64,000 nt of DNA from Lichenicola cladoniae (GTDB lineage Bacteria; Pseudomonadota; Alphaproteobacteria; Acetobacterales; Acetobacteraceae): contig NZ_CP053710.1 in NCBI RefSeq assembly GCF_013201075.1, forward strand, positions 124,001 through 188,000, in the 5' to 3' direction. Under the pieces are notes generated by a model. It was not told the origin of the DNA. It saw only the letters and a list, made by a program, of their open reading frames with translations, and did no database searches. This document shows positions 20,221 to 38,340 of this stretch, in pieces (the first letter of the stretch is position 1; each line of letters starts with the position of its first letter). The position numbers and the translations under genes are program-made.

Positions 20221-20251
20221 GTTGTGTGTCCACAGAACCGGCAGCAGCTCA

Positions 20252-21072: not shown

Positions 21073-21097
21073 TAAGAGGCCTGAGCACCCATCATTT

Positions 21098-22069: not shown

Positions 22070-23071
22070 ATGCAGATTATCGCGCTCGAAGAACACATTG
22101 TGACACCTGAGATAATAGAGGCGTGGCGAACGCTAGACCCTAAGTGGCAGGATCTCAGCTTCAAAGGCGTGTCCAAGGGTGAGGTTGGGCGGCGGCTGAT
22201 GGAGGTTGGCGCAGATCGATTAGCGGCGATGGACGCAAGCGGCGTTGACGTGCAAGTCCTCTCGTTGACTACGCCCGGCGTGCAGAACTTGAAAGTCAAC
22301 GATGCCAGGCGTCTGCAGACGCAAGTCAATGACTTGCTCGCCGAGACCGTCCGGGCCTGCCCGGAACGTTTTCAGGCGTTTGCTACGCTCGCAACACCCG
22401 ACCCGAAGGCGGCGGCGCTTGAGCTGGAGCGGGCGGTGACAAAACTTGGCATGAACGGCGCAATGCCGTTCGGCCGCACCCGCGAGAAGAACATGGACCA
22501 TCCTGACTTCTGGCCTATCTATGAAGCGGCGGAGGCGCTCGGCGCGCCACTCTATATACACCCGCAATCACCACAGCCAACGGTACGCGCGGCCTATTAC
22601 GATGACTTCGATACCCAGGTCAGCACGTTGTTCGCGATCGGCGGGATCGGCTGGCATTACGAAACTGGCATACAGGTCATTCGCCTAATCCTTTCGGGCG
22701 TGCTCGATCGTTATCCCAACTTGCAACTCATTCTTGGACATTGGGGGGAAGTAATCTTGTTCTATCTTGAACGAATCGATGACATAATGCGCACTTCTGC
22801 GAAGCTACCCCGGGCCTTGTCGGATTATGTCCGGGACCAAGTCCACGTTGCGCCGAGCGGAATATTCAGCCAGCGATATCTTCGCTGGGCAACGGAAGTC
22901 GTCGGCATCGATCGAATCCTGTTCTCTGTTGATTATCCATTTCTAACGGTGCCAGACGGGGGCGCGCGGCGTTTTCTCGATGAGGCAAATCTGAGTGACG
23001 CCGATCGTGTGAAGATAGCCAGCGGTAACTGGCGAAAGCTGGTTGCCGGCATCAAACGCTCCGCGACCTGA
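22070..23071 (+). CDS. Amidohydrolase-2 family enzyme, likely decarboxylase-type
   Basis: 333 residues from ATG 22070, preceded by GGTGGAAGG; upstream in-frame starts extend into unconserved sequence. The family TIM barrel is clear: MQIIALEEHIVTPE (E-x-H metal motif at residues 7-9), then DASGVDVQVLSLTTPGVQ, LYIHPQSPQPTVRAAYYDDF (metal-binding His), LQLILGHWGEVILFYLERID (His on a core strand) and IDRILFSVDYPFLTVPDGGA (catalytic Asp in SVDYPF). This resembles the gamma-resorcylate / 2,3-dihydroxybenzoate decarboxylase group, zinc- or manganese-dependent cytoplasmic enzymes for aromatic acids. The substrate is an inference. It is an isolated cargo gene between transposon remnants, with no partner catabolic gene visible. 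Confidence 0.85.
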   Translation: MQIIALEEHIVTPEIIEAWRTLDPKWQDLSFKGVSKGEVGRRLMEVGADRLAAMDASGVDVQVLSLTTPGVQNLKVNDARRLQTQVNDLLAETVRACPERFQAFATLATPDPKAAALELERAVTKLGMNGAMPFGRTREKNMDHPDFWPIYEAAEALGAPLYIHPQSPQPTVRAAYYDDFDTQVSTLFAIGGIGWHYETGIQVIRLILSGVLDRYPNLQLILGHWGEVILFYLERIDDIMRTSAKLPRALSDYVRDQVHVAPSGIFSQRYLRWATEVVGIDRILFSVDYPFLTVPDGGARRFLDEANLSDADRVKIASGNWRKLVAGIKRSAT

Positions 23072-23093
23072 TCCGGACTTTGGCTATTCAGGC

Positions 23094-23341
23094 TGCGTTG
23101 TTGCGTCGATCAAGCAGGAAGCAAGAGTTTGCCCTGCCCGGTGATCGCGTCAGACGGCGGGGACGGAGATTGGCTTGGCTATCTGGATCATTTGGTTGAG
23201 GGCGCGAATGGCGATGGCGACCTCAGCTTTCTGACCGGCGGTCGATCGTGCTCTGAGCTTCGGACCGATGATGTGTTTGTAGCGACCGATCGTCGTCTCC
23301 ACGATGCTACGTCGACCATACCCATTGGCCTTCTGCCAGGC
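23094..23341 (-). pseudogene. IS5 (IS903-type) 3'-end fragment
   Basis: Starts at the IS end TGCGTTGTTGCG and contains, leftward, the last 60 or so codons of the IS903-type transposase, with the R-S-I-V-E motif region and HIIGPKLRARSTAGQKAEVA, ending at a stop at 23150. It is cut at 23341 next to the IS6 element. Confidence 0.8.
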
Positions 23342-23346
23342 TGACC

Positions 23347-24320
23347 GGTTCTGTCAGCCCTCGCGCCAGTACGGATCTGTTGGCCGCTCGGTGGCTGACG
23401 TAGCGTCGCCAGCCGTGGCATTGGGCGGACATCGGGATGAACTGCGTGTGCTGTGGGTCTACGGCAGTGACGGAGCGGCCTGAAGTTACGGCTCGCGGCT
23501 ACCGGCGGTTGCGGTGCCGAACCTGCGGGCGGCAGTTCAACGAGCGCAGCGGTGGCGTCCTCAACCGGACCTGCCTGCCCAGCGACATCATCGCCTTCGT
23601 GGTATTCTGCCGGCTGCGGTATCGGCTGACGCTTCGCGACCTGAGCGAGATCATGGCGCTGCGTGGGATCGAGGTCAGCTACGAGGCCGTGCGTGACTGG
23701 GAGGCAAAGCTGCTGCCGGCCATGGGCGATGAGCTGCGCAAACGCCGCCGCGGCACCGGACGGCAATCCGGCGCGAGCTGGTTGGTCGACGAGACCTACC
23801 TGAAGGTCCGCGGCCACTGGTGCTACCTCTACCGGGCGGTCGACCGGGACGGGAACCTGATCGACGCCATGTTGAGCGAGCATCGGGACATGAAGGCCGC
23901 CAAAGCGTTCTTCCGCTCGGCGCGGGCGGTTATGGGCCTGCGGCCGGACCGGGTGACGACGGACGGGCACGGCTCCTACCCACGGGCGATCCGCACTGTG
24001 CTAGGCAAGGCAGTCCGACACCGCACCAGCGCATACCTGAACAACCGTCTCGAACAGGACCATCGCGGCATCAAGGGCAGGATCCGATGTATGCGAGGCT
24101 CCAAAAACCACGATGCCGCCCACCGCTTCTGCCGAGAGCATGGCGAACTCCGCAACCTCCTTCGCCCTCGTCGCCGTCACAACCAGATCGTATCCGCCTC
24201 CCTCCGACGCTTCCGCTTCGCAAGGAGCGCTAAACTTGCGCTCGGGATCATGCAGAACGCGTGACCCCGTAGGCTGTTATGAGGAAAGCTTGGGACTCTG
24301 GCGCGAGTGCTGACAAAACC
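23347..24320 (+). mobile_element. IS6-family element
   Basis: 974 bp with inverted ends GGTTCTGTCAGC (left) and, complemented, GGTTTTGTCAGC (right), and one transposase gene. IS6 elements transpose by cointegrate formation, which often leaves neighbouring fragments without target duplications; the left neighbour is an IS5 fragment and the right neighbour is in Tn3 transposase sequence, consistent with that behaviour. Confidence 0.88.
23437..24264 (+). CDS. IS6-family transposase with N-terminal zinc ribbon
   Basis: 275 residues. The N-terminal zinc ribbon is CVCCGSTAVTERPE then RCRTCGRQFNERSG. The helix region FRLRYRLTLRDLSEIMALRG-like (23610-23670) is typical of IS6. The DDE triad sits in ASWLVDETYLKVRGHWCYLY, PDRVTTDGHGSYPRAIRTVL and YLNNRLEQDHRGIKGRIRCM. 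C-terminal part intact, ending at 24264. The zinc ribbon marks the subgroup with an extra N-terminal domain. Likely functional. Confidence 0.92.
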   Translation: MNCVCCGSTAVTERPEVTARGYRRLRCRTCGRQFNERSGGVLNRTCLPSDIIAFVVFCRLRYRLTLRDLSEIMALRGIEVSYEAVRDWEAKLLPAMGDELRKRRRGTGRQSGASWLVDETYLKVRGHWCYLYRAVDRDGNLIDAMLSEHRDMKAAKAFFRSARAVMGLRPDRVTTDGHGSYPRAIRTVLGKAVRHRTSAYLNNRLEQDHRGIKGRIRCMRGSKNHDAAHRFCREHGELRNLLRPRRRHNQIVSASLRRFRFARSAKLALGIMQNA

Positions 24321-24968
24321 CGCGACCTGAAGGACCGCAGGCTGTAAGTCTTCCGCGGCCAGGCCGTTCCGGAGGTGCTGGCCGGCATGGTCGGCGGCAT
24401 CGTGGACGCCGACCACGTGCGGGCGCACTAGGACGAGGCGCTGCGCCTGGTGGTGTCGGTCGGCTCCGGCCGCGCATCCGCGTCGGCCATGCTGCGCGGG
24501 CTGGCCGCCTACCCGCGGCAGAACGGGCTGGCCGTCGCCCTGCGGGAGATCGGCCGCGCGGAACGGAGCCTGTTCACGCTCGACTGGTTGCGCAGCGGCG
24601 AGTCGCGCCGGCGTGCCAACGCCGGGCTGAACAAGGGCGAGGCTCGCAACGCGCTGGCGCGGGCGGTATTCTTCCACCGCCTGGGCGAGCTGCGTGACCG
24701 CTCGTTCGAGAACCAGGCCTTTCGGGCGTCGGGGCTGAACCTGCTGGTTGCGGCCATCATCTTGTGGAACACGCGCTACCTGCAGGCCGCGTTCGACGCG
24801 CTCGCCGCCCGGGGCGCCGCGGTCCCGCCCGATCTGATGCGCCACGTGGCCCCGCTGGGATGGGAGCACATCAGCCTCACCGGCGACTACGTCTGGGCCG
24901 CTGACGCCCAGCCCGGCCCTGGCCTGCTCAGGCCGCTGCGGAAACGGCCGTCATTGCTGGCTGCGTAA
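24321..24968 (+). pseudogene. tnpA: Tn3-family transposase C-terminal fragment
   Basis: Beginning right after IS6, the frame reads RDLKDRRL, TAA, VFRGQAVPEVLAGMVGG, then TAG at 24429-24431, then [20 protein letters not shown] and the strongly conserved Tn3 TnpA block [60 protein letters not shown] and [17 protein letters not shown]. The two in-frame stops and the missing N-terminal two thirds make it non-functional. No resolvase or terminal repeat is visible. Confidence 0.88.
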
Positions 24969-25100
24969 GTTCCAGGTCCGTTTGCGGATTCCGATGAATG
25001 CGGCCACTGATTCCAATCGATGGTGGCCACCGATTCCAATCGAAGGCGCCCAGAGATTCCAATGATCCCGGCCGGGGTCGTCATCGACGTGGTTATGGGG

Positions 25101-25862
25101 TCAGGCGGTGACTTCGGCGTCAAGCATGATCGCCTTTGCGGCCTGTTTTCTGAGTGACTCCCCCTTCAGGATGAGGCGGTGGGCGTTGTGGACGAGGCGG
25201 TCGAGGATCGCATCGGCAATGGTCGGATCGCCGATGACCTCGTGCCAATGATCGACCGGAACCTGGCTGGTCACGATCGTCGAGCCTTTGCCATGACGGT
25301 CGTCCATGATCTCCAGCAGGTCGCGTCGCTGCTCGGCGCTGAGCGGCGTGAGACCCCAGTCATCCAGAATTAGGACCTGCACCCGGGCGATCGTCTTCAG
25401 CATGCGGGCATGGCGTCCGTCGCCACGGGCCAGTGCGAGAGCCTCGAGCATCCTGGGCATCCGGTAGTAGGCGACAGAGCGGTCGTCCCGGCAGGCCTTG
25501 TGGCCGAGCGCGTAGGCCAGCCACGACTTACCCACGCCGGTCGGCCCTAGAATCAGCAGGTTCTGCTTGCGGTCGATCCAGTCCCCAGCTGCAAGCTTTT
25601 GGAACAATGCCCGATCGAGTCCGCGTGCGCTGCGCAGGTCGACGTCCTCGACCACGGCCGCCTAGCGGAGCGCTGCGAAGCGCAGCCGGGCAACAAGTCG
25701 CTTGTTCTCCCGGTCGGTGCTCTCGCGATCGATCAGCAGTGCCAGCCGCTCCTCGAAGCTCAGTGCTGCAATGTCGGGCTGTCGTCGCTGGTCGTCGAAC
25801 GCCTTGGCCATGCTGCCGAGGCCAAGGGCGATCAGGCGTTCCTGGGTTGGATGGGCAAGCAT
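25101..25862 (-). pseudogene. istB: istB with one in-frame TAG
   Basis: From ATG 25862 (MLAHPTQERLIALGLGSMAK) to 25101. TAG at 25662-25664 interrupts VARLRFAALR-x-AAVVEDVD where related proteins have Gln; the frame is otherwise continuous and contains Walker A GPTGVGKSWLAYALGHK, Walker B VLILDDWGLTPLS and sensor STIVTSQVPVDHW. A GTG three codons after the stop could start a truncated product that keeps the ATPase core but lacks the N-terminal IstA-interaction region. Confidence 0.85.
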
Positions 25863-25876
25863 CGGGTTTTCCTTTG

Positions 25877-27418
25877 TCAGTGGTAGTAGCCGCGACCGCG
25901 GATGTTCTCGTGCAGCACGGGAGCGGTATCGGGGGCCGGATCCTCCTGGAATGCGCGGTCGAGGCCGTTGCGCAGGATTGAGGCGATCGAGCCGTAGCTG
26001 CGGGCACCGATACTGATGCCGCGTTGGCAGGCTGCCTCCAGGCGAGCGCTGCCATAGGTCTTGGCCAACTGTAGGATGCCGAGGCAGGCGCCGAAACCCT
26101 GCTCGGGATGCGGCTTGGCGCTCATGATCGTCTCGACCAGGGCGGTGGTGCCCGGACCGACCTCGGCAGCGAACACCTGGATCCGCGCCGGCGTCCAACT
26201 GGCGTAGCGGCGATGGGCGCTCGGCATGTGCTCAGGTGTTGTCGTGTGCCGCCGGCGCAGCGTCGACCGCAGATGCGCCGCGACCCGCTGGCCGGCGTGG
26301 AACACCTCGATCGTCGTATCGGTGATGCGGGCTTCGACCAGCTCGCGGATCAGACGCGACGGGACCGAGTAGAAGTGGCCGTGCAGTTCGACATGGTAGT
26401 CGGGTGCCACCCGGCAGCGCTTCCACTCGGCATAGGCGTAGGGCTCGGCTGGCAGCGGCATCAGCGCCGGCCGGTCGATGCTGTCGAAGAACTACCGCCG
26501 GCTGGCGCCAAGCTTGCGCATCAGTCGGGCATTCATGTCGCCCTGGACGGCGTGGATCGCCTCGTTAAGCTCGCCGAGCGACAGGAACCGCCGGTTGCGC
26601 AGCCGCGCCAGGATGAACCGCTCGACGATCAGCACCCCGGTTTCGACCTTGGCCTTGTCGCGCGGGTGGCGGACACGGGCTGGCAGCACCGCCGTGCCGT
26701 AATGCGCCGCCATCTCCTGGTAGGTGCGGTTGATCCCCGGCTCGTAGCGACAGGTGGCCGTGACGCCAGAGCGCAGGTTGTCGCAGACCAGGAGCTTCGG
26801 CACCCCGCCCAGGAACGTCAGCGCGTTGACGTGCGCGCCAATCCAATCCGCCAGTCCCTCGCTCCATCTGGCCTCGGCATACGTGTAATTCGACGCACCC
26901 AGCACCGCGACGAATATATGCGCCGGTCGCTCCTCCCCGGTCGCCCCATCGAACACCGGCACGGTGTCACCCGCGTAGTCGACGAACAGTCTCTCGCCGG
27001 CAACGTGCGTCTGTCGCATCGTGGCGCTGACACCGCGGCGCCAGCCGATGTAGAGCCCGCAGAAGCGGCTATAACCGTAGCCATCCGGATGCTCTGCTCT
27101 GTATTCTTCCCAGAGCAGCACCAGGGTCACACCCCGGCGGCGGAGCTCGGCATGGACATGGTTCCAGTTCGGCGCAGCCCGAATGAGGGCCGTATCGAAC
27201 CCGGCCGGCGTGAACAGCCGCCGCTCCAGTTCGGCATCGTCCATCTCCGTCGGCAACGGCCAAGTGATCCCGATCACCGCTGTCCGCCGCAGATACTCGC
27301 CCACCGTCGTCCGGCTGATCCCCACCGATTGGGCAATCATCCTCTCGCTCGCCCCACAGGCGTGCCGCAGCCGTAAAACCTCGCGAACCTTGCGCATCGA
27401 CACTCTCTCGGCTGGCAT
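25877..27418 (-). pseudogene. istA: istA with one in-frame TAG
   Basis: From ATG 27418 (MPAERVSMRKVREVLRLRHA; an ATG at 27430 is also possible) the frame contains the helix-turn-helix region, the catalytic segments LFVDYAGDTVPVFDGATGE, LLVCDNLRSGVTATCRYEPG and HPRDKAKVETGVLIVERFIL, then TAG at 26492-26494 after KLGASRR, and continues in frame (FFDSIDRPALMPLPAEPYAY) to HENIRGRGYYH. Only the C-terminal third is separated by the stop. Homologous to the intact istA at 10910. Confidence 0.87.
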
Positions 27419-27609
27419 CGCGTCCCCCACTCGTCATGGGAGCCACGCTACCGGGCATCAGATCGTCGACTTCAAAACCAGCCCCAATGGGGTGGCCGCA
27501 TTCGTTGGAATCAGTGGCCGCATTCAATCGGAATCACCGGCCGCTTTGCATCGGAATCCGCAGGTCCGTTCGCATGAACCGGACGCAGGGAGCACTTTCG
27601 TGTCCTGTC

Positions 27610-28195
27610 CCCGGACGGGCTGCACCGCGCATTGCTGCATCGGCTGCGGGCGGCAGGCGGCAGGCGGGATCGACTGGAGCCGCGCGTGCATCGACAGCGC
27701 GTCCCTCGCCGCCAAAAGGGGGGTGACAAGACGGGGCCGAACCCGACCGATCGAGGCAGGCTGGGCACGAAACGCCATCGTGTCACCGACCGGAATGGCA
27801 TCCCGCTCGCCTTCGTCCTGACCGGCGCCAATACCAACGACAGCATGCCGTTCGAGAAGTTGCTTGACTGGATCCCGCCGATCGGCGGCAAGACAGACCG
27901 CGCCTGGCATCGTCCCGACAAGCTCCACGCCGACAAGGCCTACGACCATCGGCGCTGCCCACAGGCCTGCCGCCGTCACGGCATCGCACCACGCATCGCA
28001 AGGCGGGGCATCGAGACCAGCCAGAAGCTCGGGCGGCACCGATGGGTCATCGAGCGAACCTTCGCCTGGATCAACCGCAACCGCCGCCTCGTCACGCGCT
28101 ATGAGCGCAGAAGCGACATCCACGACGCCTTCACCGCTCTCGCCTGCGCGCTTATCTGCTTCAACAAACTGCAGAGAAGGTTTTGAAAGGCGTTT
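27610..28195 (+). pseudogene. IS5-family (IS427-type) element, copy 3, 5'-truncated
   Basis: Corresponds to the last two thirds of the element. Contains the slippery run (A4G6) and then orfB: GGDKTGPNPTDRGRLGTKRH, GANTNDSMPFEKLLDWIPPI, RHRWVIERTFAWINRNRRLV, and the right end GGTTTTGAAAGGCG. Diverged from copies 1, 2 and 4 (for example DWIPPIGGK for DSILPIGGK). The 5' part with the start codon is absent. Confidence 0.82.
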
Positions 28196-28289
28196 TTAGT
28201 CTGATCGTCCGTCCCGGGCATCCTATCCCTCGATCCCATAGGAGAGGACCAGATCAGCGCGATCTCCGCACCTGAATGTCCGCAGCTTG

Positions 28290-31172
28290 CTAGATCATCG
28301 CGTCCCGGACAGACACGATGATCCGGTCACGGCCCTCGGCTTTGGCTTGATAGAGTGCTTTATCTGCGCGACCGACCAGCGACTTCCATTCGTCGCGTGC
28401 ATGCTCATGCGCCATGCCGATGCTGCAGGTTACCTTGATAACCTCGCCATCCACGTCAAACGGCTCGCCGCAGGTCGCGATGTTCAAAAGGTGGATTCGA
28501 TTGACCTCTGGGACCTGTTCAGCCTCGATCACGATCAGGATCTCCTCTCCACCGTAGCGGCCAGCATACTCACCCGGCTTCAACGCCAGCTTCAGGCGAC
28601 GCCCCATTTCCTTGAGGATTTCGTCACCGGCCAGGTGGCCATAGCGGTCGTTGATTCCTTTGAAGTGGTCAATGTCCAGCAAGCCTATCGCGACCTGGGA
28701 TGTTCGATCCGCCTGGGCGAGCGTCCTGACGAGCCTGGATTGTATCTCGCCCCGCGTCAGCAGCGTGGTCAGGCTGTCCGTCGCCTGGGCCTCACGGATT
28801 TCAGCTGTGCGCAGTTCGACCTCGCGCTTGAGTGCCTGCCTCTGCTGGACAAGAAGGCGGACCCTCAGCCGCAAGACGCCGTAGGCGGAACCTGCTCCGG
28901 CCAGGAAATAGAGGGCCAGCAGCGGCCACCAGAGCCACCACGGCTTCCTGATGCGCAGCAGGACGGATACGGGTGCCGAAACCTGATGCGCCAGCGGGTC
29001 GTAGGCAACGAGCTCGAACCGGTGATTTCCCGGGGGAACCGAAGGATACCGGGCGTAGCCGCTCGCGGTGTCAGCCCATCCTTTGTCGACACCATCAAGG
29101 CGATAACGAAAGCGGACGATACTGCCCGCGCGGAAGTTGAGCACGCCGAACTGGATGAAGAAGGCATCCCGCGTGTAGGGCACCGCCTGCTCGCGGAAAG
29201 CCGTTTCGCCAACGGTGACGGAAGTGATGACCGGCTTCAGGCTTTCCTTCATGAACAGCTGCATCGGATCGAGCAGGTGCGACAGTCCGTGGCTGGTAGC
29301 GATCCACATCGAGCCGTCGCTATCCTCCAGCAGGCCACCTTGGTCCAGATCATCCCAGATCAGGCCATCCGCAGTGGTGGCGGACGCCCAGCGCCGACCG
29401 TTGAAGACCGAAACTCCGTTGTCGGTCCCGGCCCACAGCCAGCCCCGGCTGTCGACCAGCAGCGAGACAATGCTGTTGGAAATAACGTCGGGTGGCTGGA
29501 ACCGGGTGCTCGACACGATCCTGTCGCTGTCCAGCTGCAGCCGGTAGAGCCCGCCGCCGGCCCCTGCGACCCAGACCACTCCCGCCGGTCCGGCCGTCAG
29601 CGTCAGCGGCTCGAAGTCGGCCTGCTGCCAATGTAGAGGAATAAAGATGATCGAGCCGTCGGCGTGGCGGTGCAATAAATCCTGGCCGCGAAGCACCCAG
29701 AGGCTGTCGTCGGGAGCGACAACCGCCGTCGTCACGGACCCCGACAGGCCGGCGATCGGCTGTGGCGCCGTCGGTGCGGGAGCGCTGTCGACGATGTAGA
29801 CGCCCTTCTCTGTGATGAACCAGAGCCGGGCCTTCGATCCATGCAGGATCTGGCTGACCTGCGGCAGCGGATATGTGCTGACCTGCCCGGTAGTGAGCGT
29901 GATGCAGGCGACGGCGGCCGACCCGACAGACCGCCAAAGGTGGCCGAACGCATCCAGCGCGATCGAGAATGCCGCCTTGTCGTAGTGCCGATGTGCCAGA
30001 GTCACCCCAGGCGGCCTGCCGATCGCGTCGATGCCGCCGTCAGAAGCAACCCAGAGCGGCCCGTTCGGCTGGCGAGCAATTTGCCAGAGCACGTCGTCGG
30101 CCAAGCCGTCGTGGTGGTCCAGGTTCTCCCACATGCCATAGCCAAGGGCTCGCATAAGCCCGCGTCCGAGTACGGCGAGCCATAGATCGCCCTGGCGGTC
30201 GAACATCAACGTCAGGATCGGCACCTGCGGCAGGCCGTTTTCGGTGGTGAGCGTCTTCCAGCCGGAGGGGCCGCGGATCATGAGGCCGGAAGAGGACTGG
30301 GTCAGCAGCTGACCGGACGGTGTCAGCGCCAACAGAAGGCTCTGTGGGTAGTTCGCGTAACGTCCGCCTTGGTCAGGCAGCAGCGACACGTCAACATGGC
30401 CCGTCCTGGGATCGATGTCTGCCAGGCGGGTGTCGGAGCGTGCCAGAACGTGACCGTCCTTCGTCAGCAGCAGTGCCACCCAGCTGTCGGCTGGCAAACC
30501 CTCGGCGGGACCGAAACAACGTGCCGAGGTTGTGCCGAATCCGCAGATCGACTCGTCCGATCGAACCACCCAGAGGGTTGAATCTCGGGCGGCGAGAGGG
30601 GACGGGTCTTGTAACGTAACCCCTGGCTGCCGGAGGAGCCCATCGGCGAACTCCACCAGGGGCCGTCCACTGCTGGTGTCGATCCGGACGCGATACAGTT
30701 TTCCTTTGCCGGCGAAAACAGCGCCGCCGTTCCAAGAGACTATTCCGCCCGCGCTGTCGCTAGGGATCGGCCCAACCCGTGAGATGGCGGCCTCAAAAGT
30801 CAGGGCGGTTGGCGGGGTGTGGGGTCCGATGGGTGCGGTTGAAACAAAGATGCTGTGCGGGTAGCGAACGATCAGCCGGCCGCGTGTATCAAATGTAAGG
30901 CCGCTGGCGATGCCGCCGTCCGGCAGCCCCTGTTTCGGACCGAAGTTGAAGAACCGCCGCCCGTCATAGACATAGAGCCCATGCTCGGTGCAGGCGAAGA
31001 CGTATCCAGACCGGTCCTGTTGCAGGCAAGAGAACCAGGAATTCGTAAGCCTAAGCCCTTCCGCCTTGCCATAGGACTGGAACGCAATCTGTTGGGCCGT
31101 TGCCCGACTGCCAGTGTAGCCCCAGAACAAAAGGCTAAGCAGGAAAACGAGGTTATACCTATAGCGGGCCAT
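28290..31172 (-). CDS. Membrane diguanylate cyclase with two-component-type propeller sensor
   Basis: 960 residues from ATG 31172 (MARYRYNLVFLLSLLFWGYT, signal or anchor helix). The long periplasmic part is built of repeated propeller units (FFNFGPKQGLPDGGIASGLT, DLWLAVLGRGLMRALGYG, GWLWAGTDNGVSVFNGRRWA), followed by a Y_Y_Y-type domain (RFRYRLDGVDKGWADTASGY). A membrane helix at about 744-768 (WWLWWPLLALYFLAGAGSAY) and a coiled coil lead to a GGDEF domain whose active site is GGEEI (about residue 874), consistent with c-di-GMP synthesis. No RxxD inhibitory site precedes it (LKPGEYAGRYGGEE). It probably turns a periplasmic signal into c-di-GMP, influencing surface attachment or cellulose. The start codon at 31196 is an alternative. 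No effector gene is adjacent. Confidence 0.88.
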   Translation of the reverse strand: MARYRYNLVFLLSLLFWGYTGSRATAQQIAFQSYGKAEGLRLTNSWFSCLQQDRSGYVFACTEHGLYVYDGRRFFNFGPKQGLPDGGIASGLTFDTRGRLIVRYPHSIFVSTAPIGPHTPPTALTFEAAISRVGPIPSDSAGGIVSWNGGAVFAGKGKLYRVRIDTSSGRPLVEFADGLLRQPGVTLQDPSPLAARDSTLWVVRSDESICGFGTTSARCFGPAEGLPADSWVALLLTKDGHVLARSDTRLADIDPRTGHVDVSLLPDQGGRYANYPQSLLLALTPSGQLLTQSSSGLMIRGPSGWKTLTTENGLPQVPILTLMFDRQGDLWLAVLGRGLMRALGYGMWENLDHHDGLADDVLWQIARQPNGPLWVASDGGIDAIGRPPGVTLAHRHYDKAAFSIALDAFGHLWRSVGSAAVACITLTTGQVSTYPLPQVSQILHGSKARLWFITEKGVYIVDSAPAPTAPQPIAGLSGSVTTAVVAPDDSLWVLRGQDLLHRHADGSIIFIPLHWQQADFEPLTLTAGPAGVVWVAGAGGGLYRLQLDSDRIVSSTRFQPPDVISNSIVSLLVDSRGWLWAGTDNGVSVFNGRRWASATTADGLIWDDLDQGGLLEDSDGSMWIATSHGLSHLLDPMQLFMKESLKPVITSVTVGETAFREQAVPYTRDAFFIQFGVLNFRAGSIVRFRYRLDGVDKGWADTASGYARYPSVPPGNHRFELVAYDPLAHQVSAPVSVLLRIRKPWWLWWPLLALYFLAGAGSAYGVLRLRVRLLVQQRQALKREVELRTAEIREAQATDSLTTLLTRGEIQSRLVRTLAQADRTSQVAIGLLDIDHFKGINDRYGHLAGDEILKEMGRRLKLALKPGEYAGRYGGEEILIVIEAEQVPEVNRIHLLNIATCGEPFDVDGEVIKVTCSIGMAHEHARDEWKSLVGRADKALYQAKAEGRDRIIVSVRDAMI

Positions 31173-31291
31173 ATGGAAACCAAGGACCATCCGCATCGAC
31201 AGTTTTCCACCCGGCGCTCAAATAGAAGACAATTCAACGGCGACGATCTCATTGGAAGAGCTAGAGTATCCACTGTATCAGCATTGAGAAA

Positions 31292-31321
31292 GCGCCTTCT
31301 CACCTTTCGGCGAGAAGGCGC
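31292..31321 (-). terminator. Rho-independent terminator candidate
   Basis: Perfect 10-bp stem GCGCCTTCTC / GAGAAGGCGC with a 10-base loop. On the minus strand it is followed by TTTCTC, a short T-rich stretch. It lies between the IFHHWP-repeat gene and the cyclase gene, so it would end the former's transcript. Confidence 0.65.
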
Positions 31322-31367
31322 AGTTCATACGACCGAGTTATGTTTGGTCCCGGGGTGCAATGAGGCT

Positions 31368-31712
31368 TCAGCCCCAGTGATGAAAGATCGACGAATCGAT
31401 ATCGGCGACTGTCACGGTCGCGTCCACGTTCGGCCAATGATGAAAGATCTTAGGATCTGCGTCCGCCACCGTTGTCGCCGCGTGAGGCCAGTGGTGGAAG
31501 ATCGCAGGATCAACGTCGGCGACAGTCGTGGTCGCGTGCACGTTCGGCCAATGATGGAAGATCTTAGGATCAATGTCGGCGAGACGGAAGGCCTGGTGTA
31601 GACTTGCCTCACGGCTTGTCGGAGGAACCGACGATCCGGAAAGCAGTAGCCCCCCAGCAATCGTCAGCGACGCGCTAAGTGCTTGAAAGAATAATACGGT
31701 TCTGGCGGTCAT
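31368..31712 (-). CDS. Exported small protein with four IFHHWP repeats
   Basis: 114 residues from ATG 31712, with AAGGA eight bases upstream. N-terminal hydrophobic segment VLFFQALSASLTIAGGLLLS suggests export or membrane anchoring. From residue 44 to the end the protein consists of four tandem units of 18-20 residues (44-63, 64-81, 82-101, 102-114), each L/V-A-D-x-D-P-x-IFHHWP followed by an Asn/Thr-rich spacer; the last unit ends IFHHWG. I know no family with this repeat. Paired His and Trp next to Asp could bind metal or haem, or the units could be excised as peptides; both are speculation. Separated from the downstream cyclase gene by a terminator. Confidence 0.7.
   Translation of the reverse strand: MTARTVLFFQALSASLTIAGGLLLSGSSVPPTSREASLHQAFRLADIDPKIFHHWPNVHATTTVADVDPAIFHHWPHAATTVADADPKIFHHWPNVDATVTVADIDSSIFHHWG
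31371..31583 (-). repeat. Four tandem coding repeats (about 60 bp each)
   Basis: DNA repeats of 54-60 bp encoding ADxDPxIFHHWP units. The strand-reversed core is recognisable as GGCCAATGATGGAAGATC or close variants at each unit. Third-position differences between units show that the peptide, not just the DNA, has been conserved. Confidence 0.8.
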
Positions 31713-31977
31713 AGTCCGAGTCCTTGTGCGGCTGCGGACCTGATGTCCGAGCCAAAGCAAGGTATAGACTATCGCGGGCCTGGATCGGTGGCGGCACGAT
31801 GTGCTACCGCGCCGAAAACCTCTGGGTAGTGGCTGTGGTGGCGAACGCCCAACGTTCATCGGGCACTTTACAGGCGGGTGACACGATCAATTCGTGCATA
31901 GATCAAGTAGCTTAAAGTTGTTTTAGGCGAACGCCAAAAAACACTGTCCGACGATCTTTCGTCCGGCAGGATCCTGA
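31713..31977. other. Intergenic between repeat-protein gene and DUF2382 relic
   Basis: No supported gene. The upstream promoter of the repeat-protein gene is expected around 31720-31800; no clear boxes were identified. Confidence 0.35.
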
Positions 31978-32404
31978 TTAGATGCCAAAACGCTTCGTTG
32001 TCGTTTCAGCAGCTGCGATCGTCGGGTCGACAACTTCAACTTCCTCACGACGCAGAGTGTCGTGAACCTTTTGGCGAACTCGTCTATATCCTTCTGCACC
32101 ACGACGTCCTGGACCACGTGGGCCGATTTCGCAACGAAAGCTTCCTCGCCAGTCTCTGCCACGCTTACCTCGCAGGCACCGAAAGTATCGGCGTCAAATT
32201 CGGCGTTCGCCGTCTCCGGGGTGCGGGAGCCGTGAAATATGCATTATAATGCGCATGGCGCTCCTCAAGATCGCGACGCTCGTGATGCCCTATAAATTTG
32301 TCCACATCGCCGGCATCAGCCCGAAGAAGGCCGCCATCAAGAATCGCGTCCAAGCCCTCGAGACCTTTGGCGGCTTTCGAACCGGCATTGTATGCGCTTA
32401 TCAA
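31978..32404 (-). pseudogene. DUF2382 (YsnF-type) stress protein, frameshifted
   Basis: Leftward fragments in changing frames: HHERRDLEERHAHYNAYF, then (shifted) NAEFDADTFGACEVSVAETG with GEEAFVAKSAHVVQDVVVQK, then (shifted again) KVHDTLRREEVEVVDPTIAA and TTTKRFGI before TAA. The sequence VxETGEEAxVxKxAxVVxxVVVxK is the C-terminal DUF2382 signature seen in the intact genes at 54198 and 58208. At least two frameshifts make it non-functional. Confidence 0.7.
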
Positions 32405-32686
32405 AAGCTCTCATCATGGTAACGCTGTTGCGAACCGCGGGGCGGGCAGGATTGAAGATGCGGTATTTATTCCGTCAAATAAACCATCTTCGGAAGGTGC
32501 TCAGTACATCCTTGGTTTCTGCGAGCGAAAACCGCTCACCGTTTGATTTCACTCACGCGTGATTGTGAACTTCTACTGGACATAATATCGTTCCTTTCGA
32601 ACTAGGAAGATCCTGCATCAGGCATTGTGAACTGATCAGGCCACGGCAAGAGGCGAGCCTGTGCCGCGATTGACCTTCATCCGACA
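32405..32686. other. Intergenic, nothing recognised
   Basis: AT-richer stretch without a supported gene between the DUF2382 relic and the helicase gene. Confidence 0.35.
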
Positions 32687-34621
32687 TCATCCGGATCGCT
32701 TTGTCGCTGCATAAGCCGATGGCGCCCGTTTGGTGTCTGTCGGTGTCCGGCTCGGTCGTCCGACCGGCGGCTTCCACTCTCCGCGCTGACGTGCCGTCCA
32801 GGCGTAGCGTGGGTCGTCGTCTAGCAGGTGCAGATGCTCCTGCAGCTGATTGCGCTCGAGCCAGCCGATCGCCGCTTCCAGCTCGGCCAGCGTCATCTGC
32901 GCCCGGTTCTTGTTGCCGGTCATGCGCTTCAGCACCGCGTTGTAGCGGTGGTAGAGCCCGGGACCCGCCGTGCCGCCCTTGAACCCCGCTCGCCCGGCCT
33001 CGTCCTCAACCGCCTGCGCCGCCACCATCTCCCCCAACCGGGCCCGCAGACGCCGCTCGGCCACCGACGGCGCTTCCAGCAGCTCCGCCTGCGCCGCCTC
33101 CTGCTCGGGACGCTTCAGGGCCAGCTCCGGTCCAGGCCGCAGTGTGTCGAAGCGCAGCGCCAGCGCATTGCTCTCCAGCGGCGTGATGCCGTCCCGGGAC
33201 GGCGGCAGCTGGTCGAGCAGCCACAAGGGCAGGGCGCTTTGCTTGCGCTTGGCCTTCGGCCGCGCCAGCGTGCCCTGCTCATACTCCATGCGTCGGCGGA
33301 ACAGCGCGAACAGCGGATCATCGGGGTGGAACACCAGCGCCTGCTGCGTCTCGTAGGCACCGGCATGTGGATCCACCCGGGTGGCGCGGGCCACCATCTG
33401 CTCCAGCCAGGCGCGCGACCGGATGTGGGTGAGTGCTGCCACCACCGCCACGTCCGGTGCATCCAGGCCTTCATAGGCCATGGCCACCGTTACCAGGATC
33501 GACGGATCCGGCCGGAGCCGGAAGCTGGCCAGGATCTGGTGCGCGCGCGGCGTGTCGGAGGTGGCCAGCTGCGCCGTCTCCTCAGCCTGGGCGACCGGGA
33601 TCCAGCGTCGGATCACGCCGAGATAGTGCTTGGCCGTGGTCTGGTCCGGCGCCACCACCAACAGCTTGCCAAGGCCACGCGCTGCGGCACCCGGCTCCAG
33701 GTCACGCTCCTGCCGCCGGCGGGCGCGCACGTCGCGGATGGCGATGAACGCCTCATGCAGCAGCGTTTCGGCAAAGCCGGTGCGCAAAGCCGTAAACAGG
33801 GCAGGGCGAGTGGTCTCGTCGGGATGCAGATTGGCCAGGCGGTGCGGCCCGATCTCGTTATCGTCCTCGTCGCGCCAGCGCGCTTCGCCATCCAGCGCGC
33901 CGAAGGTCACCGGCAGCACCGCGCGCTCGAGCAGCGCCTGGGCACGCGAGTAGCCGATGATCGCCCAGCCGGGTGCATCCAGCTCGATCTCGCGGGTGCG
34001 CGCCTTCACGCCCTTGCGGTAGGGCAGCCAAAGGATCGCCTTGCCGTCCGCCCGCTCCAGCGTACCTGACAGCAGCAGCCGGACGGCGGCACACTCCAGG
34101 AGTGGCAGGATCGCCTGTGACCAGGCACTGGCCTGCTCCTCGTCCGTGGCGGCTGCGTGGGCGGCGGCATCCGGATCGGTGTCGGCCAAAGCCGGCAGGT
34201 GATGCACCTCGTCGACCACGAGCAGGGTGCGATACCGGCGCATCTCGCGCAGGTGCAGGTCAGGGGCGGCGGCCACGCCCTGGTAGGTGGTGATGTAGCC
34301 GGCCAGTCCGCGGCTCGGATCAGCTGAGTTGTCGGCCGCCCGTACCGACAGGCCGTGGCCCAGGATGGTGCGCCAGACCGGATCGGTGAACGCCTCCTCG
34401 GCCTGCAGGCGCAGACTGTCGCGCGGCACTATCCAGCAGACGCGCTCGACGAGGCCCGCCTCGATCAGCCGGGCGGCGGCGATCACCGGCAGCAGCGATT
34501 TGCCGCCACCGGGTGTGACCGCGGCCAGGATGTCGGGGGCGGTGGTCTCGCCGGCCACCATCGCCGCAACCAGGTTGGCCAGACGCTGCTGGTGGGTGCG
34601 GAGCGGGCGGGGCAACGTCAT
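32687..34621 (-). CDS. SF2 DEAD/DEAH-type helicase
   Basis: 644 residues. Motif I (ILAAVTPGGGKSLLPVIAAA, residues about 32-51), motif Ia region IVPRDSLRLQAEEAF, motif II VVDEVHHLPA (DEVH), motif III LLLSGTLERADGKA, and in the second RecA-like domain VTVAMAYEGLDAPDVAVVAA followed by RSRAWLEQMVARATRVDPHA (motif VI-like, QxxARATR). The layout resembles type III restriction/Rad25-like ATPases, without an attached nuclease or methylase domain. The C-terminal 200 residues are helical and basic. It probably translocates on or unwinds DNA. It lies in a block of DNA-associated plasmid genes; its own start is ATG 34621, after a 123-bp gap from the HU gene. Confidence 0.85.
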   Translation of the reverse strand: MTLPRPLRTHQQRLANLVAAMVAGETTAPDILAAVTPGGGKSLLPVIAAARLIEAGLVERVCWIVPRDSLRLQAEEAFTDPVWRTILGHGLSVRAADNSADPSRGLAGYITTYQGVAAAPDLHLREMRRYRTLLVVDEVHHLPALADTDPDAAAHAAATDEEQASAWSQAILPLLECAAVRLLLSGTLERADGKAILWLPYRKGVKARTREIELDAPGWAIIGYSRAQALLERAVLPVTFGALDGEARWRDEDDNEIGPHRLANLHPDETTRPALFTALRTGFAETLLHEAFIAIRDVRARRRQERDLEPGAAARGLGKLLVVAPDQTTAKHYLGVIRRWIPVAQAEETAQLATSDTPRAHQILASFRLRPDPSILVTVAMAYEGLDAPDVAVVAALTHIRSRAWLEQMVARATRVDPHAGAYETQQALVFHPDDPLFALFRRRMEYEQGTLARPKAKRKQSALPLWLLDQLPPSRDGITPLESNALALRFDTLRPGPELALKRPEQEAAQAELLEAPSVAERRLRARLGEMVAAQAVEDEAGRAGFKGGTAGPGLYHRYNAVLKRMTGNKNRAQMTLAELEAAIGWLERNQLQEHLHLLDDDPRYAWTARQRGEWKPPVGRPSRTPTDTKRAPSAYAATKRSG

Positions 34622-34705
34622 CAGGGGAATCTTGAGTCACGCAGACTCTGCTGTCCAGCGTGACGATGTTGGTCCCCTTCGGGTTCAGATCGAGGACGCC
34701 GCCTG

Positions 34706-34726
34706 GCTCGCTGGATCGAGCCGGCG
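34706..34726 (-). terminator. Short hairpin after the HU gene
   Basis: GGCTCG/CGAGCC stem around a 6-base loop just downstream of the HU stop on the minus strand; no strong T run. It may weakly terminate or structure the transcript between HU and the helicase. Confidence 0.35.
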
Positions 34727-34744
34727 GCGGCCGGTGCAGAACGG

Positions 34745-35014
34745 CTAGACGGCCTTCTTGAGGTTCGGGCTGGCCTTGAAGCGGACGGTCTTGCCGGCCT
34801 TGACCTTGACCGGCTCGCCGGTGCGCGGGTTCAGCGCCTTGCGCGCCTTGGTCTTCCTGACGGTGAAGGTGCCGAACGAGGGCAGGGTGAAGCCGCCGTC
34901 CTTCTTCATTTCTGAGACAATGGCCGCGATCAGCTCGGCCGCCGCTAGATTGGCGGCAACGCCGGTGCAGCCGGTCGAATCCTGCAATGTCGCTGCAATG
35001 AAGGCCTTGCTCAT
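34745..35014 (-). CDS. HU/IHF-family DNA-binding protein
   Basis: 89 residues from ATG 35014 (MSKAFIAATLQDSTGCTGVA). The family signature is clear: helix-rich N-terminal half (AELIAAIVSEMKKDGGFTLP), FGTFTVRKTKARKALNPRTG (the G-F-G-x-F and arm region with the conserved NPRTG) and a basic tail VRFKASPNLKKAV. It bends DNA and would serve plasmid compaction, replication or conjugation. The upstream ATG at 35035 is less likely. Followed by the helicase gene in the same direction. Confidence 0.92.
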   Translation of the reverse strand: MSKAFIAATLQDSTGCTGVAANLAAAELIAAIVSEMKKDGGFTLPSFGTFTVRKTKARKALNPRTGEPVKVKAGKTVRFKASPNLKKAV

Positions 35015-35158
35015 CTGTTTGGTATCCTGATGCAAAAGACGCTGATAGATGCCCGGTCGGCATTGATCAAGTTACCAACCGTCAACTCAGCACTGCATCT
35101 TTCTATGGTGAAGTCGCTTAGACCTACAACATGTTTCGCTGGCGATGAACCAAAGAAA

Positions 35159-35187
35159 AAGGGGAATAGCGTAATGCCATTCCCCTT
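35159..35187 (-). terminator. Rho-independent terminator
   Basis: Perfect 9-bp inverted repeat AAGGGGAAT / ATTCCCCTT with an 11-base loop; on the minus strand it is followed by TTTTTCTTT (35152-35160). It terminates the AT-hook protein gene that ends at 35232. Confidence 0.85.
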
Positions 35188-35231
35188 GCTTACCTTCCCG
35201 GCACGTTACCGCCGGTTGTCGCTGTGCCCGG

Positions 35232-35690
35232 TCAGATATCGGCGCCAGCACTTTCCGATGTGCTGTCAGCGGCCGATGCCGGCATCTCTGACTTCTTCTT
35301 AGTTGCACGGCGTGGCTTCGCGACCGGCGTCGGTGCCTCGGCAACGGCCTTTGCACGTCGGGTCTTCTTCACAGCGGCTTCGGCAGGAGCTGCGGATGGC
35401 TCGGCAGCCGGTGCCTTGGCAGCCTGCTTCATCTCGGCGCCCTGCTTGCGCAGCCGGTCGATGGTGCGCTCCAACTTGATGATGTGAGCTTCGAGCTCGG
35501 CCTTGTTGAGCTTCGGTGCAGCCGGCGCAGTCTTGCGCACGACAGCGCGCTTTACGGCCGCAGGCGCTTTGGCTTTGCTTGTCGTGCGGACGCCGTTCTT
35601 CGACCCGGGCGGTCGGCCACGCGGCTTCTTTGCAGCCTCTGTCGGTGCGGTCTTTTTGGAAGAGCGTGTTGAGGTCGCGGTGCGAGCCAT
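35232..35690 (-). CDS. AT-hook / histone-H1-like nucleoid protein
   Basis: 152 residues, rich in Ala, Lys and Pro. The AT-hook core KKPRGRPPGSKNGVR lies near the N-terminus, a basic AK-rich region follows, then a short coiled coil (KAELEAHIIKLERTIDRLRK) and another Ala/Lys/Pro-rich tail. This is the composition of alphaproteobacterial histone-like proteins that bind AT-rich DNA. It is probably a plasmid-encoded nucleoid or silencing protein. It has its own promoter region and a strong terminator. It lies between the exonuclease operon and the HU gene, all in one direction. Confidence 0.75.
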   Translation of the reverse strand: MARTATSTRSSKKTAPTEAAKKPRGRPPGSKNGVRTTSKAKAPAAVKRAVVRKTAPAAPKLNKAELEAHIIKLERTIDRLRKQGAEMKQAAKAPAAEPSAAPAEAAVKKTRRAKAVAEAPTPVAKPRRATKKKSEMPASAADSTSESAGADI

Positions 35691-35825
35691 GGATGATTCC
35701 GATTCTCGAGGGTGGAGCGAGCGATTCGCAGGGCGGGTAACCCACCATGCTGATTACGGGGCGACAATAGACAATGCACTACCACTACCACTACCGATAA
35801 TGGCGGGGGAACTTTGTCGTGCGCT

Positions 35826-36533
35826 CTACCGACCGGGCTGTCGCCGTTCGATCTCTCGCCGCCCACAATAGATCACGTCAGCATCCATCTCGGTCTGCCG
35901 GACGAGCCATTGCAGATAATCGAGCGGAAGCTCCGACCAGGATAACCCACGATGCTTGCCGATCGGCATCAACGGCAGCAGCTTTGGCTGGCTGGTCCAG
36001 GCGATCATCTGCTCGATGCTGGCCAGCACCAACATCCGCAGCAGCAGATGCGCGGTAACATAAGCGTCGGGGCCGGCACGATGCGGCGGCATCGCCAGAC
36101 CTGCATCAAGCGGCAGCCCGAGCCAGTAGCGCAGCACCTGGTTGGAATGCTTTGGTGCGTCCGGCCACAGCCGCAGCGCCACCTTGTAGGTGCAGATCCA
36201 GGGCAGGGCGTCGGTGTGCAGGACGTCGACGAACAGCTGCTCGAAGGCGCAGTTGTGTGCCACCAGAACATCCGGCGGATTACCGGCCCACACCGCCAGC
36301 CGCAGCCGTTCGCCGGTGCACACCGGGGTGTCCGCATTAAAATCGTGCTCGGTGATGTGATGCACCGCCATCGTTTCCGGCGGGATGCCGTGCAACGGCC
36401 GGTACAGCCGCGTCATCGGCCGGTCGATCTGCCAGGAGCCCGTGCTGTCGTGCAGGTCGACCCGGCCGAACTCGATGATCTCGGCCGGCGGCGCCGTGCC
36501 GGTGGTCTCGATGTCGATGACGCGCAGCCGCAT
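35826..36533 (-). CDS. DnaQ-like 3'-5' exonuclease with DUF3820-like tail
   Basis: 235 residues from ATG 36533, whose start overlaps the SprT-like stop as ATGA. The DEDDh exonuclease motifs are MRLRVIDIETTG (D7, E9), DVLVAHNCAFEQLFVDVLHT (ExoII) and HRAGPDAYVTAHLLLRML (ExoIII, H-x4-D). The C-terminal segment LPLMPIGKHRGLSWSELPLD, ending YLQWLVRQTEM, matches the DUF3820 pattern (MPFGKHKG..LxELPxxYLxWL). The domain pairing resembles phage or plasmid exonucleases used in DNA processing or repair. Last gene of the MucR-DUF2786-SprT-exonuclease run. Confidence 0.85.
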   Translation of the reverse strand: MRLRVIDIETTGTAPPAEIIEFGRVDLHDSTGSWQIDRPMTRLYRPLHGIPPETMAVHHITEHDFNADTPVCTGERLRLAVWAGNPPDVLVAHNCAFEQLFVDVLHTDALPWICTYKVALRLWPDAPKHSNQVLRYWLGLPLDAGLAMPPHRAGPDAYVTAHLLLRMLVLASIEQMIAWTSQPKLLPLMPIGKHRGLSWSELPLDYLQWLVRQTEMDADVIYCGRREIERRQPGR

Positions 36534-36994
36534 CACAGTTGAGCCTGAAAGGCTGCGGTGTCGACGAACAGCGGCTGCGCCCGCATGTCCACCTGCACGT
36601 CCGCGCTCTCGAGGGTCGCCAGCAGCCAAGGCTGCGGCAGCCGCAGATACCGCACGAGCAGTTGCACGTAGATCCCGGCAAACACCGGGCCGTGCTGATC
36701 CGAGTGTCCGTCATGGGTGCTGGTCAGGGCATGCGCCAACTCGTGCAGCAGGCACCAGGACGGCGTCTGCGCGGGCAGACGGAGGGTAAGGCGGGATCCA
36801 TCCGCCATCCGCGTCGTCGCCTGTTTCGGCAGAGGCTCGACGCGCGGCGGATAGCGCAGACCCAGCTCAGACCAGATCGCGTCCACCATTCCTTGAGCCG
36901 CGCCGTAGGCGATCAGGCTGGGATCGCGTGGCACGACCATCTCATCCTCCCACGCATAGACCCGGCTGCGCTGTTCATCGCGTCCCGTCATCAT
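36533..36994 (-). CDS. SprT-like zinc metalloprotease
   Basis: 153 residues. The metal site is LLHELAHALTSTHDGHSDQH (HExxH at 84-88 with a further His at 101 in HGPVFAGIYVQ), the arrangement of SprT/Spartan-like zincins, although the protein is shorter than SprT and has no C-terminal zinc ribbon. Spartan-type proteases remove DNA-crosslinked proteins, which would suit the DNA-linked neighbours; that is an inference. It overlaps both flanking genes by 3-4 bases, so the three are translationally coupled. Two start ATGs (36994, 36991) are possible. Confidence 0.8.
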   Translation of the reverse strand: MMTGRDEQRSRVYAWEDEMVVPRDPSLIAYGAAQGMVDAIWSELGLRYPPRVEPLPKQATTRMADGSRLTLRLPAQTPSWCLLHELAHALTSTHDGHSDQHGPVFAGIYVQLLVRYLRLPQPWLLATLESADVQVDMRAQPLFVDTAAFQAQL

Positions 36995-37713
36995 GCCAGA
37001 CGGTTCTGGTCGTCCTGCTCAACCGGCCGCCTGAGGTTGACCCGCTCTCCGGCCAGGCGCCCGACGCGGAAGGCGGTGTCGTTGTGCAGCGTCAGGCCCG
37101 GCATGGCCCGCAACCTCGGCCCACTGGCTCGAAAGGCTGCCTCTACGACCTGGTGCCGCACGATCGTCAGGGCTGAGCCGGTCGGACGCTGCGTGGCCAC
37201 GCTCGCCTCCCGATCATCGTGCATGTCCACCAACCGCTCGGCGATCCGCGCCGCCATGCCCAGCTGGAAGCTCGAGGTGGCGCGACTCAAGGCAGCGCCC
37301 GCAAGCGCTGGTCTTGCGGATCGGAAGGTCTGGCTGTCGCTGTGGATGGCGCGCTCGATCACCGCGTAGAGGTAGGCCACCAGAGCGGTGTCGGTCGCAA
37401 AGGCGAAGAACACATAGGACGGCGGATGGCTGTCACGGGACAGCCAGACCTTGCAGTCACAGAAGGCCGCAATTGCCGGCACGCAGGCATCGATTGGCCG
37501 GCGACGGGTTCCGCCCAGCGGAACCTCAATTTGTACGCAGGGCTCATCGCGGATGTCGATCTCTTCCATGTTGAGCGCGTAGCGCTCGAGCAGCCGCCCC
37601 ACCATGTCGGCCGCCGCCATGGCCTCGGCCTCGGTGCAGCCGCGGGCAATCGTGCGCTCGGTGAGCGCCTTGACCCGCGCCTTCACCCTGGCGAGTTCTG
37701 TGTCCTGGCTCAA
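36991..37713 (-). CDS. DUF2786 domain protein
   Basis: 240 residues from TTG 37713 (MSQDTELARVKARVKALTER), with no clear ribosome binding site, so the start is uncertain. The N-terminal DUF2786 signature is KVKALTERT-like followed by GCTEAEAMAAADMVGRLLER and YALNMEEIDI. The rest is a conserved C-terminal part with AFCDCKVWLSRD and SSFQLGMAARIAERLVDMHD. Such proteins are common on phages and plasmids next to SprT-like genes; the role is unknown. The stop overlaps the SprT start by 4 bases. Confidence 0.78.
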   Translation of the reverse strand: MSQDTELARVKARVKALTERTIARGCTEAEAMAAADMVGRLLERYALNMEEIDIRDEPCVQIEVPLGGTRRRPIDACVPAIAAFCDCKVWLSRDSHPPSYVFFAFATDTALVAYLYAVIERAIHSDSQTFRSARPALAGAALSRATSSFQLGMAARIAERLVDMHDDREASVATQRPTGSALTIVRHQVVEAAFRASGPRLRAMPGLTLHNDTAFRVGRLAGERVNLRRPVEQDDQNRLA

Positions 37714-37747
37714 GCGTGCCGTCGTTGTGGCGTCAGCTCAGACACCA

Positions 37748-38173
37748 TCATGACCCGTCCTGGGCGTCCGACTTACGGCCGAGACCGCTTTCCCGCGCCA
37801 GGTCGCTCCGGCGCTTCGCATAGTTCGGCGCCACCATCGGATAGTCCTGTGGCAGCTTCCACCGTTCGCGATACTGCGCGGGTGTCATGCCATAGGAGGT
37901 TTGCAGGTAACGCTTCAGCATCTTGAGCTTTCTGCCGTCCTCCAAGCAGACAATGTAGTCAGGGAAGACGCTCTTCTTGATCGGGACGGCCGGCGTCAGG
38001 GCCTCGGGACCAGCAGCCGCAGCGTCCTCTGGCCGACCGTCTATGCTGCTCAGCGCCGCAAAGACCTTGCGGATCAGGGTCGGAAGATCCTCCGCTGGCA
38101 CTGCGTTCATGGCGCAGTGTGCGCTGACGATCTGGGTTGTCAGTTCGAGAAGAGATGCGGAAAGTTCAGTCAA
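37748..38173 (-). CDS. MucR/Ros-type transcriptional regulator
   Basis: 141 residues, TTG start at 38173 with GGAA upstream. The MucR/Ros domain reads SVFPDYIVCLEDGRKLKMLK, then RYLQTSYGMTPAQYRERWKL and PQDYPMVAPNYAKRRSDLAR, the standard signature. The two histidines that would complete the zinc finger (RHLxTHY in MucR) are Tyr and Ser here (RYLQTSY), as in some zinc-less Ros homologues. It is first in an operon with DUF2786, SprT-like and exonuclease genes and probably regulates them or conjugation. MucR proteins bind AT-rich sites and control large regulons. Confidence 0.88.
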   Translation of the reverse strand: MTELSASLLELTTQIVSAHCAMNAVPAEDLPTLIRKVFAALSSIDGRPEDAAAAGPEALTPAVPIKKSVFPDYIVCLEDGRKLKMLKRYLQTSYGMTPAQYRERWKLPQDYPMVAPNYAKRRSDLARESGLGRKSDAQDGS

Positions 38174-38340
38174 GATAGTTCCATTTGTATTTTCGGAGTT
38201 TGTTCAAAGATTGTATTACATTAGCCATAAAGACGACGACCGGTCAGAACTCAATGGACGATAGCACAGAACGTTCGTCAGTGTAGTTGGTGGCTCTTGC
38301 CTCTGAGCTCGTCCTGCGGTGATTACGCATGGTTCATGCT
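38174..38340. other. Intergenic between MucR and ccdB-like genes
   Basis: About 165 bp, AT-rich in the part nearest to MucR (TTGTATTACATTAGCC), which probably holds the MucR-operon promoter. No gene seen. Confidence 0.4.

Follow-up and report, generated by a model that had tools for sequence, protein, structure and literature searches.

A 64,000-nucleotide stretch of the Lichenicola cladoniae genome (the window) encodes a short protein built largely of near-identical units, and it raises the question of what such a protein is for. The original prediction, made from the letters alone, described a 114-residue exported protein with a ribosome binding site, a hydrophobic N terminus, and four ADxDPxIFHHWP units. 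The open reading frame (ORF) is real and lies on the minus strand (Table 1). An AAGGA precedes its ATG, as predicted, and a signal-like N-terminal segment is present, so the protein is apparently exported. Alternative in-frame starts would give products of 163 and 130 amino acids (aa), but homologues from two other genomes (G056 and G181) begin comparably at the 114-codon start (MTIRNSLF and MTTKIASY). There are indeed four units, which follow the pattern AD-x-D-[PS]-x-IFHHW-[PG]. However, unit 4 (ADIDSSIFHHWG) has DS in place of DP and a terminal WG, so that both DP and the last Pro vary among the units. A 96% identical copy on another contig of the same genome (G000:C2) has DP in unit 4, yet it also ends in WG. 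A distant paralogue in the genome (L003/L021) has three units of the LHHW type. A structural tandem repeat had been suggested as well, but an AlphaFold2 model of the precursor made without an alignment had a mean pLDDT of 44.9, and this low-confidence, single-sequence model argues weakly against a folded repeat.

Table 1. Features of the precursor-cyclase locus, in window coordinates
Feature	Position	Strand	Remarks
Exported repeat precursor (predicted)	31368..31712	-	114 codons + stop
Hydrophobic signal-peptide-like N terminus, residues 1-25	31638..31712	-	extent judged by eye
Unit 1, ADIDPKIFHHWP	31545..31580	-	
Unit 2, ADVDPAIFHHWP	31485..31520	-	
Unit 3, ADADPKIFHHWP	31431..31466	-	
Unit 4, ADIDSSIFHHWG	31371..31406	-	
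AAGGA, putative ribosome binding site	31721..31725	-	9-13 nt 5' of ATG
Sensor diguanylate cyclase: N-terminal helix, propeller blades (Reg_prop), Y_Y_Y, membrane/coiled-coil helix, GGDEF (GGEEI)	28290..31172	-	
Hairpin, 10-bp perfect stem, between precursor and cyclase	31292..31321	-	

We searched 397 genomes of the same family, among them the genome of the window (G000), and eight matched the repeat protein at an E value of ≤0.01. Three of these matches (G281, G193, and G299; E values of 0.006 to 0.008) were judged to be chance: on reading, the matched stretches of G281 and G193 were without repeat units, and G299 was without an HxW frame in a frame scan. At an E value of ≤1e-3 there were seven repeat genes in five genomes, three in G000 and one in each of the others. 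The precursors of the other four genomes have seven IFHHWP units (G056), eight ISHHWA units (G181), seven SSRHEWP units (G219), and three IFHHWP units (G049). For a profile, we combined 28 HHW-type units of five precursors, leaving out the third G049 unit and the LHHW paralogue. The first His and the Trp occurred in all units. Averaged per precursor, the Asp was conserved at 0.98, the Pro after it at 0.95, the second His at 0.80, and the final Pro at 0.75, and the spacers were variable. The repeat search in the Acetobacteraceae that had been proposed as a check thus found homologues with conserved units. Because other genomes carry homologues with units in the same frame, the window ORF is, judged by its relatives, a genuine gene and beyond chance.

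The window precursor matched nothing above the curated cut-offs of Pfam (best score 18.5 bits versus 23) or NCBIfam (10.1 versus 344), and it matched no chain in the PDB. This agrees with the prediction that it belongs to no described family. Four precursors from the wider set described below (L016, L018, L121, and L155) scored over a Pfam cut-off, but their scores were inflated by the repeats and no single stretch passed, so we treated the assignment as spurious. Direct searches of IMG/VR, GTDB r220 contigs, and PLSDB with the repeat protein found no relative.

The original prediction gave no neighbour, but the main functional clue is the adjoining gene. The next gene after the precursor, on the same strand, encodes a sensor diguanylate cyclase (DGC). 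Pfam assigned Reg_prop, Y_Y_Y, and GGDEF domains to it, with GGDEF at residues 805 to 958 of a 968-aa reading (an alternative start lies at position 31196). A model built with 16 sequences (pLDDT 80.2, pTM 0.60) begins with a helix, continues with many consecutive strands and a long helix (residues 751 to 797), and ends in a mixed C-terminal domain. When this model was compared with the PDB by Foldseek, the best matches were to BT4663, in its periplasmic domain (4a2m; E value of 7.8e-36, 18% identity). Hybrid two-component sensors of the BT4663 type (PDB 4a2l and 4a2m) have the same periplasmic fold, Reg_prop plus Y_Y_Y, but they combine it with histidine kinase/response regulator output in one chain, whereas the window protein has a C-terminal GGDEF domain instead. 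Because the active-site motif GGEEI and the conserved LLDIDHFKxIND are present, the window DGC is predicted to be an active cyclase and is expected to make c-di-GMP. No RxxD inhibitory site was seen ahead of GGEEI in the window DGC (LALKPGEYAGRYGGEEI).

In the 397 genomes, every one of the seven repeat genes found at an E value of ≤1e-3 is immediately followed, on its own strand, by the gene for a homologue of the window DGC (100, 97, 67, 63, 57, 49, and 47% identical to it). We compared the 17- to 19-kb neighbourhoods of the pair in G000, G056, G181, G219, and G049, using ORFs of at least 110 aa and an E value of ≤1e-8. Between genomes, the loci matched only in the DGC and precursor, apart from a weak match at 25% between G181 and G219. 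The pair is almost the only content common to the neighbourhoods across the five genomes. The three loci of G000 have further ORFs in common: a stretch of about 10.6 kb that includes the window pair (about 27579 to 38204) is duplicated on another contig (locus L020, G000:C2:119001-137000), where the ORFs are 78 to 100% identical.

In our view, the repeat gene probably specifies a secreted peptide precursor with several units, a dedicated input of the adjoining sensor DGC. A multi-core peptide precursor was among the original suggestions, and the multi-unit reading fits. The precursor would be exported to the periplasm by the Sec pathway, and its conserved units (D-P-x-I-F-H-H-W-P here) would be freed by a protease or left in the chain. 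Binding of a unit to the sensor propeller would then alter the dimerization of the membrane-bound cyclase, and the cytoplasmic GGDEF domain would produce more (or less) c-di-GMP. The peptide might leave the cell as a pheromone or act within its producer cell, and the repeats would increase dose or valency. Export, processing, binding, and the sign of the effect are steps that we infer around what the data show directly, namely the recurrent gene pair, the sensor architecture, the constrained units, and the agreement of unit type with DGC clade. The dipeptide [VIL]A, which could be a processing site, occurs 105 times in the mature regions versus 50.2 times after shuffling, about twice as often, although these counts are descriptive only because array copies are not independent and the cut points were chosen by us.

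We also approached the system from the cyclase side. A search with a DGC alignment matched 37 of the 397 family genomes, and a broader alignment matched 36 of 299 genomes of the order, which overlap those 37. These searches scored no more than two candidates per genome, so paralogues are undercounted. Beyond the family (f1) and apart from genus g1, searches of the class (385 genomes) and the phylum (299 genomes) matched only two genomes, G713 and G972, and no precursor was seen alongside either DGC (G713 had 498 bases ahead of the match). Distant cyclases among the matches listed in a search of genome contigs with the DGC alignment provided the outgroup and the fold alignment.

Many of the DGCs have a small upstream ORF with a signal-like N terminus and a repeated unit of its own, in 1 to 12 copies. 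The unit types at this position include HHWP, RHEWP, RHGWP, RQWP, HHF, RHPS, and GPRPP..DPC..C. Examples are RQWPAPN (12 copies), RHPS (7), RHGWPQEE (4), EHRNFRIGT (3), VVHHF (2), AHHYPG (1), RHRWP (1), and NPNTLKDRPT (at least 7, in an ORF that runs off its contig with its start outside the sequence). In genus g85, all nine genomes have GPRP..DPC..C units, in 1, 3, 4, 5, or 6 copies. The 26 tabulated precursors are 44 to 222 aa long and end 51 to 284 nucleotides before the DGC start. Several have one unit within about 70 aa, which implies that one unit may be enough and that repeats would add dose or valency. Five of the ten precursors classed as single or other (L124, L133, L134, L138, and L145) have no clear common unit and may be misassigned. 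Weak ORFs upstream of g43 and g31 DGCs, among the matches listed, were dismissed by eye for a low signal score or as parts of neighbouring genes. The g85 precursors (L143, L144, L150 to L155, and L205) have two Cys per unit, one in DPC and a second after it, whereas the HHW units are Cys free; the paired Cys residues suggest a small disulphide loop. Searches of PLSDB with DGCs (the window's and one from g85) and with part of one g85 precursor found no matches, nor did a search of IMG/VR with that precursor segment.

As a specificity control, we scanned for tandem repeats in 3,922 distinct M-to-stop segments of up to 400 aa, taken from the window and the loci collected by that stage. Thirty-nine segments were over the threshold, and 31 of these overlap precursors. 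Two were shadow frames belonging to one further precursor (L179, G071), and six were unrelated. The precursors L019, L021, and L109, whose repeats are short or irregularly spaced, fall below the threshold. The distant cyclases were included in the scan, and none yielded a precursor.

We placed 44 DGCs in a tree. Repeated units occur in the precursors of 17, a further 10 come with a single unit or with a small ORF of unclear type, and the remaining 17 are without a precursor by our filter, one of them (L120) on a contig that ends about 270 bases upstream. Those without a precursor include all eight g43 entries and three of g31, so the sensor can presumably work alone. The seven DGCs with HxW repeats form one clade (support 100/99), as do the eight g85 DGCs in the tree (99/98), and the RQWP and RHGWP DGCs are sisters (100/100). 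Unit labels are clustered on the tree (10 changes versus a shuffled mean of 20.4), but relatedness alone would do likewise. Unit type tracks well-supported DGC clades, as it would for any linked and co-inherited gene pair.

Precursor similarity also rose with DGC similarity (Spearman 0.44 over 25 pairs; none of 5,000 permutations was as high). Here precursor similarity was a z score against shuffles with the signal region removed; one near-duplicate was dropped, and the precursors of G049:C142, G326, and G071 were left out. The median z was 11.0 within clades (58 comparisons, of which 12 were at z < 2) and -0.57 between clades (242 comparisons, of which 7 exceeded 4, mostly linking HxWP-like units of separate clades). 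The precursor and receptor-candidate genes are thus linked and co-varying, although shared ancestry alone could produce the co-variation.

Could the repeat protein be an output of the pathway instead? It might be a co-regulated secreted product (matrix, adhesive, or glycan binding) that is made when the cyclase is active and never touches the sensor. The linkage of the pair would suit this idea, matrix-type proteins can be repetitive, and Trp- and His-rich units could bind surfaces or glycans. Moreover, the closest solved sensor, BT4663, carries a title that describes it as a sensor of heparin and heparan sulphate; the ligand of the propeller may therefore be a nonpeptide. Even so, the units differ almost wholly between DGC clades while gene position and the signal-like N terminus are kept, and single-unit precursors of about 70 aa are of an odd size for a matrix protein. 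We therefore consider a secreted output unlikely.

Another reading, also rather improbable, is a co-sensor: the periplasmic protein would remain intact and respond to metal or pH, and its His-His-Trp units would relay metal binding or protonation to the cyclase. The profile is compatible with such a role, since the first His is found in 28 of 28 HHW-type units and the second is frequent. However, metal binding by His-His, which the original prediction had raised, is not general: RHEWP units lack His-His, and so do the RQWP, RHGWP, and GPRPP..DPC..C units of related precursors at the same position.

Repeated cores behind a leader also look like the multi-core precursors of ribosomally made, modified peptides. 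The gene might then encode such a product, or an antimicrobial, with the cyclase as an unrelated neighbour. We think this very unlikely, because the cyclase is common to the compared 18-kb loci of different genomes, whereas no modification enzyme or dedicated exporter is (neighbours were partly annotated, and the enzyme could be nonshared or unlinked). In addition, the N terminus resembles a Sec signal more than a cytoplasmic leader, as judged from a crude hydrophobicity score and by eye.

The original prediction had read synonymous differences between units as selection on the peptide. In agreement, pS exceeded pN in whole-unit comparisons of eight of nine arrays (the exception, L119, had a pS of 0 and a pN of 0.098), whereas the unevenly spaced window array was compared over its core only, which is biased by the choice of conserved cores. 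Two recent copies within G000 differ by one synonymous and four nonsynonymous changes; no constraint is visible there, and the numbers are tiny. At the DNA level the array is a tandem repeat, and one relative has an open antisense frame, but a chance open frame is hardly credible given this synonymous excess and the frame, hydrophobic segment, and gene position kept across genomes.

A dedicated peptide input to the DGC, the reading that we prefer, has partial parallels. In systems such as YfiN/YfiR and MbaA/NspS, a membrane c-di-GMP enzyme is under the control of a partner protein in the periplasm. However, those partners are folded proteins, whereas here they would be short repeat precursors of changing sequence. 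The yeast alpha-factor precursor has a signal sequence followed by a variable number of near-identical units with spacers. The layout here is the same, but the setting is bacterial, the candidate receptor is the adjoining DGC, and processing is inferred. GdpX2 and GdpX3 of Xanthomonas oryzae are Reg_prop/Y_Y_Y-GGDEF proteins, the domain combination of the window DGC, and the part of the report available to us lists their periplasmic part as of unknown function and mentions no linked peptide gene (PMC6637768). In topical searches of open-access literature, we recognized no paper describing the precursor-DGC pair. Its presence in related bacteria, with other repeated peptides, suggests an as yet undescribed family of peptides dedicated to feeding c-di-GMP signalling. 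Peptide-receptor signalling and the cyclase domains are already known; what would be new is a variable, multi-copy secreted precursor paired with a cyclase receptor.

A broader proposal is more tentative. One Gram-negative family may have diversified secreted multi-copy peptide signals, each co-inherited with its own propeller-type DGC receptor, as a species- or paralogue-specific peptide code that feeds into c-di-GMP. One genome may run two different pairs of this kind in parallel. If this is true, a gene-encoded, diversifying peptide would be a direct c-di-GMP input in Gram-negative bacteria. To our knowledge, the natural ligands of many sensor DGCs are unknown. A functional pairing would mean that the ligand is encoded beside its receptor and can be synthesized and tested at once.

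Several minor features of these loci were also seen. The hairpin between the window genes is a candidate attenuator, partial terminator, or RNA stabilizer. A partial terminator in the gap would yield more precursor than receptor, but such stems are not general: perfect stems of 10 to 12 bp, the window's included, occur in 5 of 26 precursor-DGC gaps (L022, L020, L016, L018, and L108). Window positions 19360 to 28186 hold many transposase and insertion sequence (IS) genes (integrase core and DDE transposase), and IS matches lie on Acidisoma, Acidibrevibacterium, and Roseomonas plasmids, consistent with the Acetobacteraceae of the original prediction. Two related DGCs (L137, G132:C267; L139, G071:C3) have a same-strand ORF directly upstream and no precursor. 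These ORFs have subthreshold subtilase matches (20.7 and 20.4 bits versus a cut-off of 21.8), and the loci may represent a variant of the input that is linked to a protease. Finally, the locus at G320:C5:50001-59500 (L135) has two tandem DGC genes, one of which is split across two frames.
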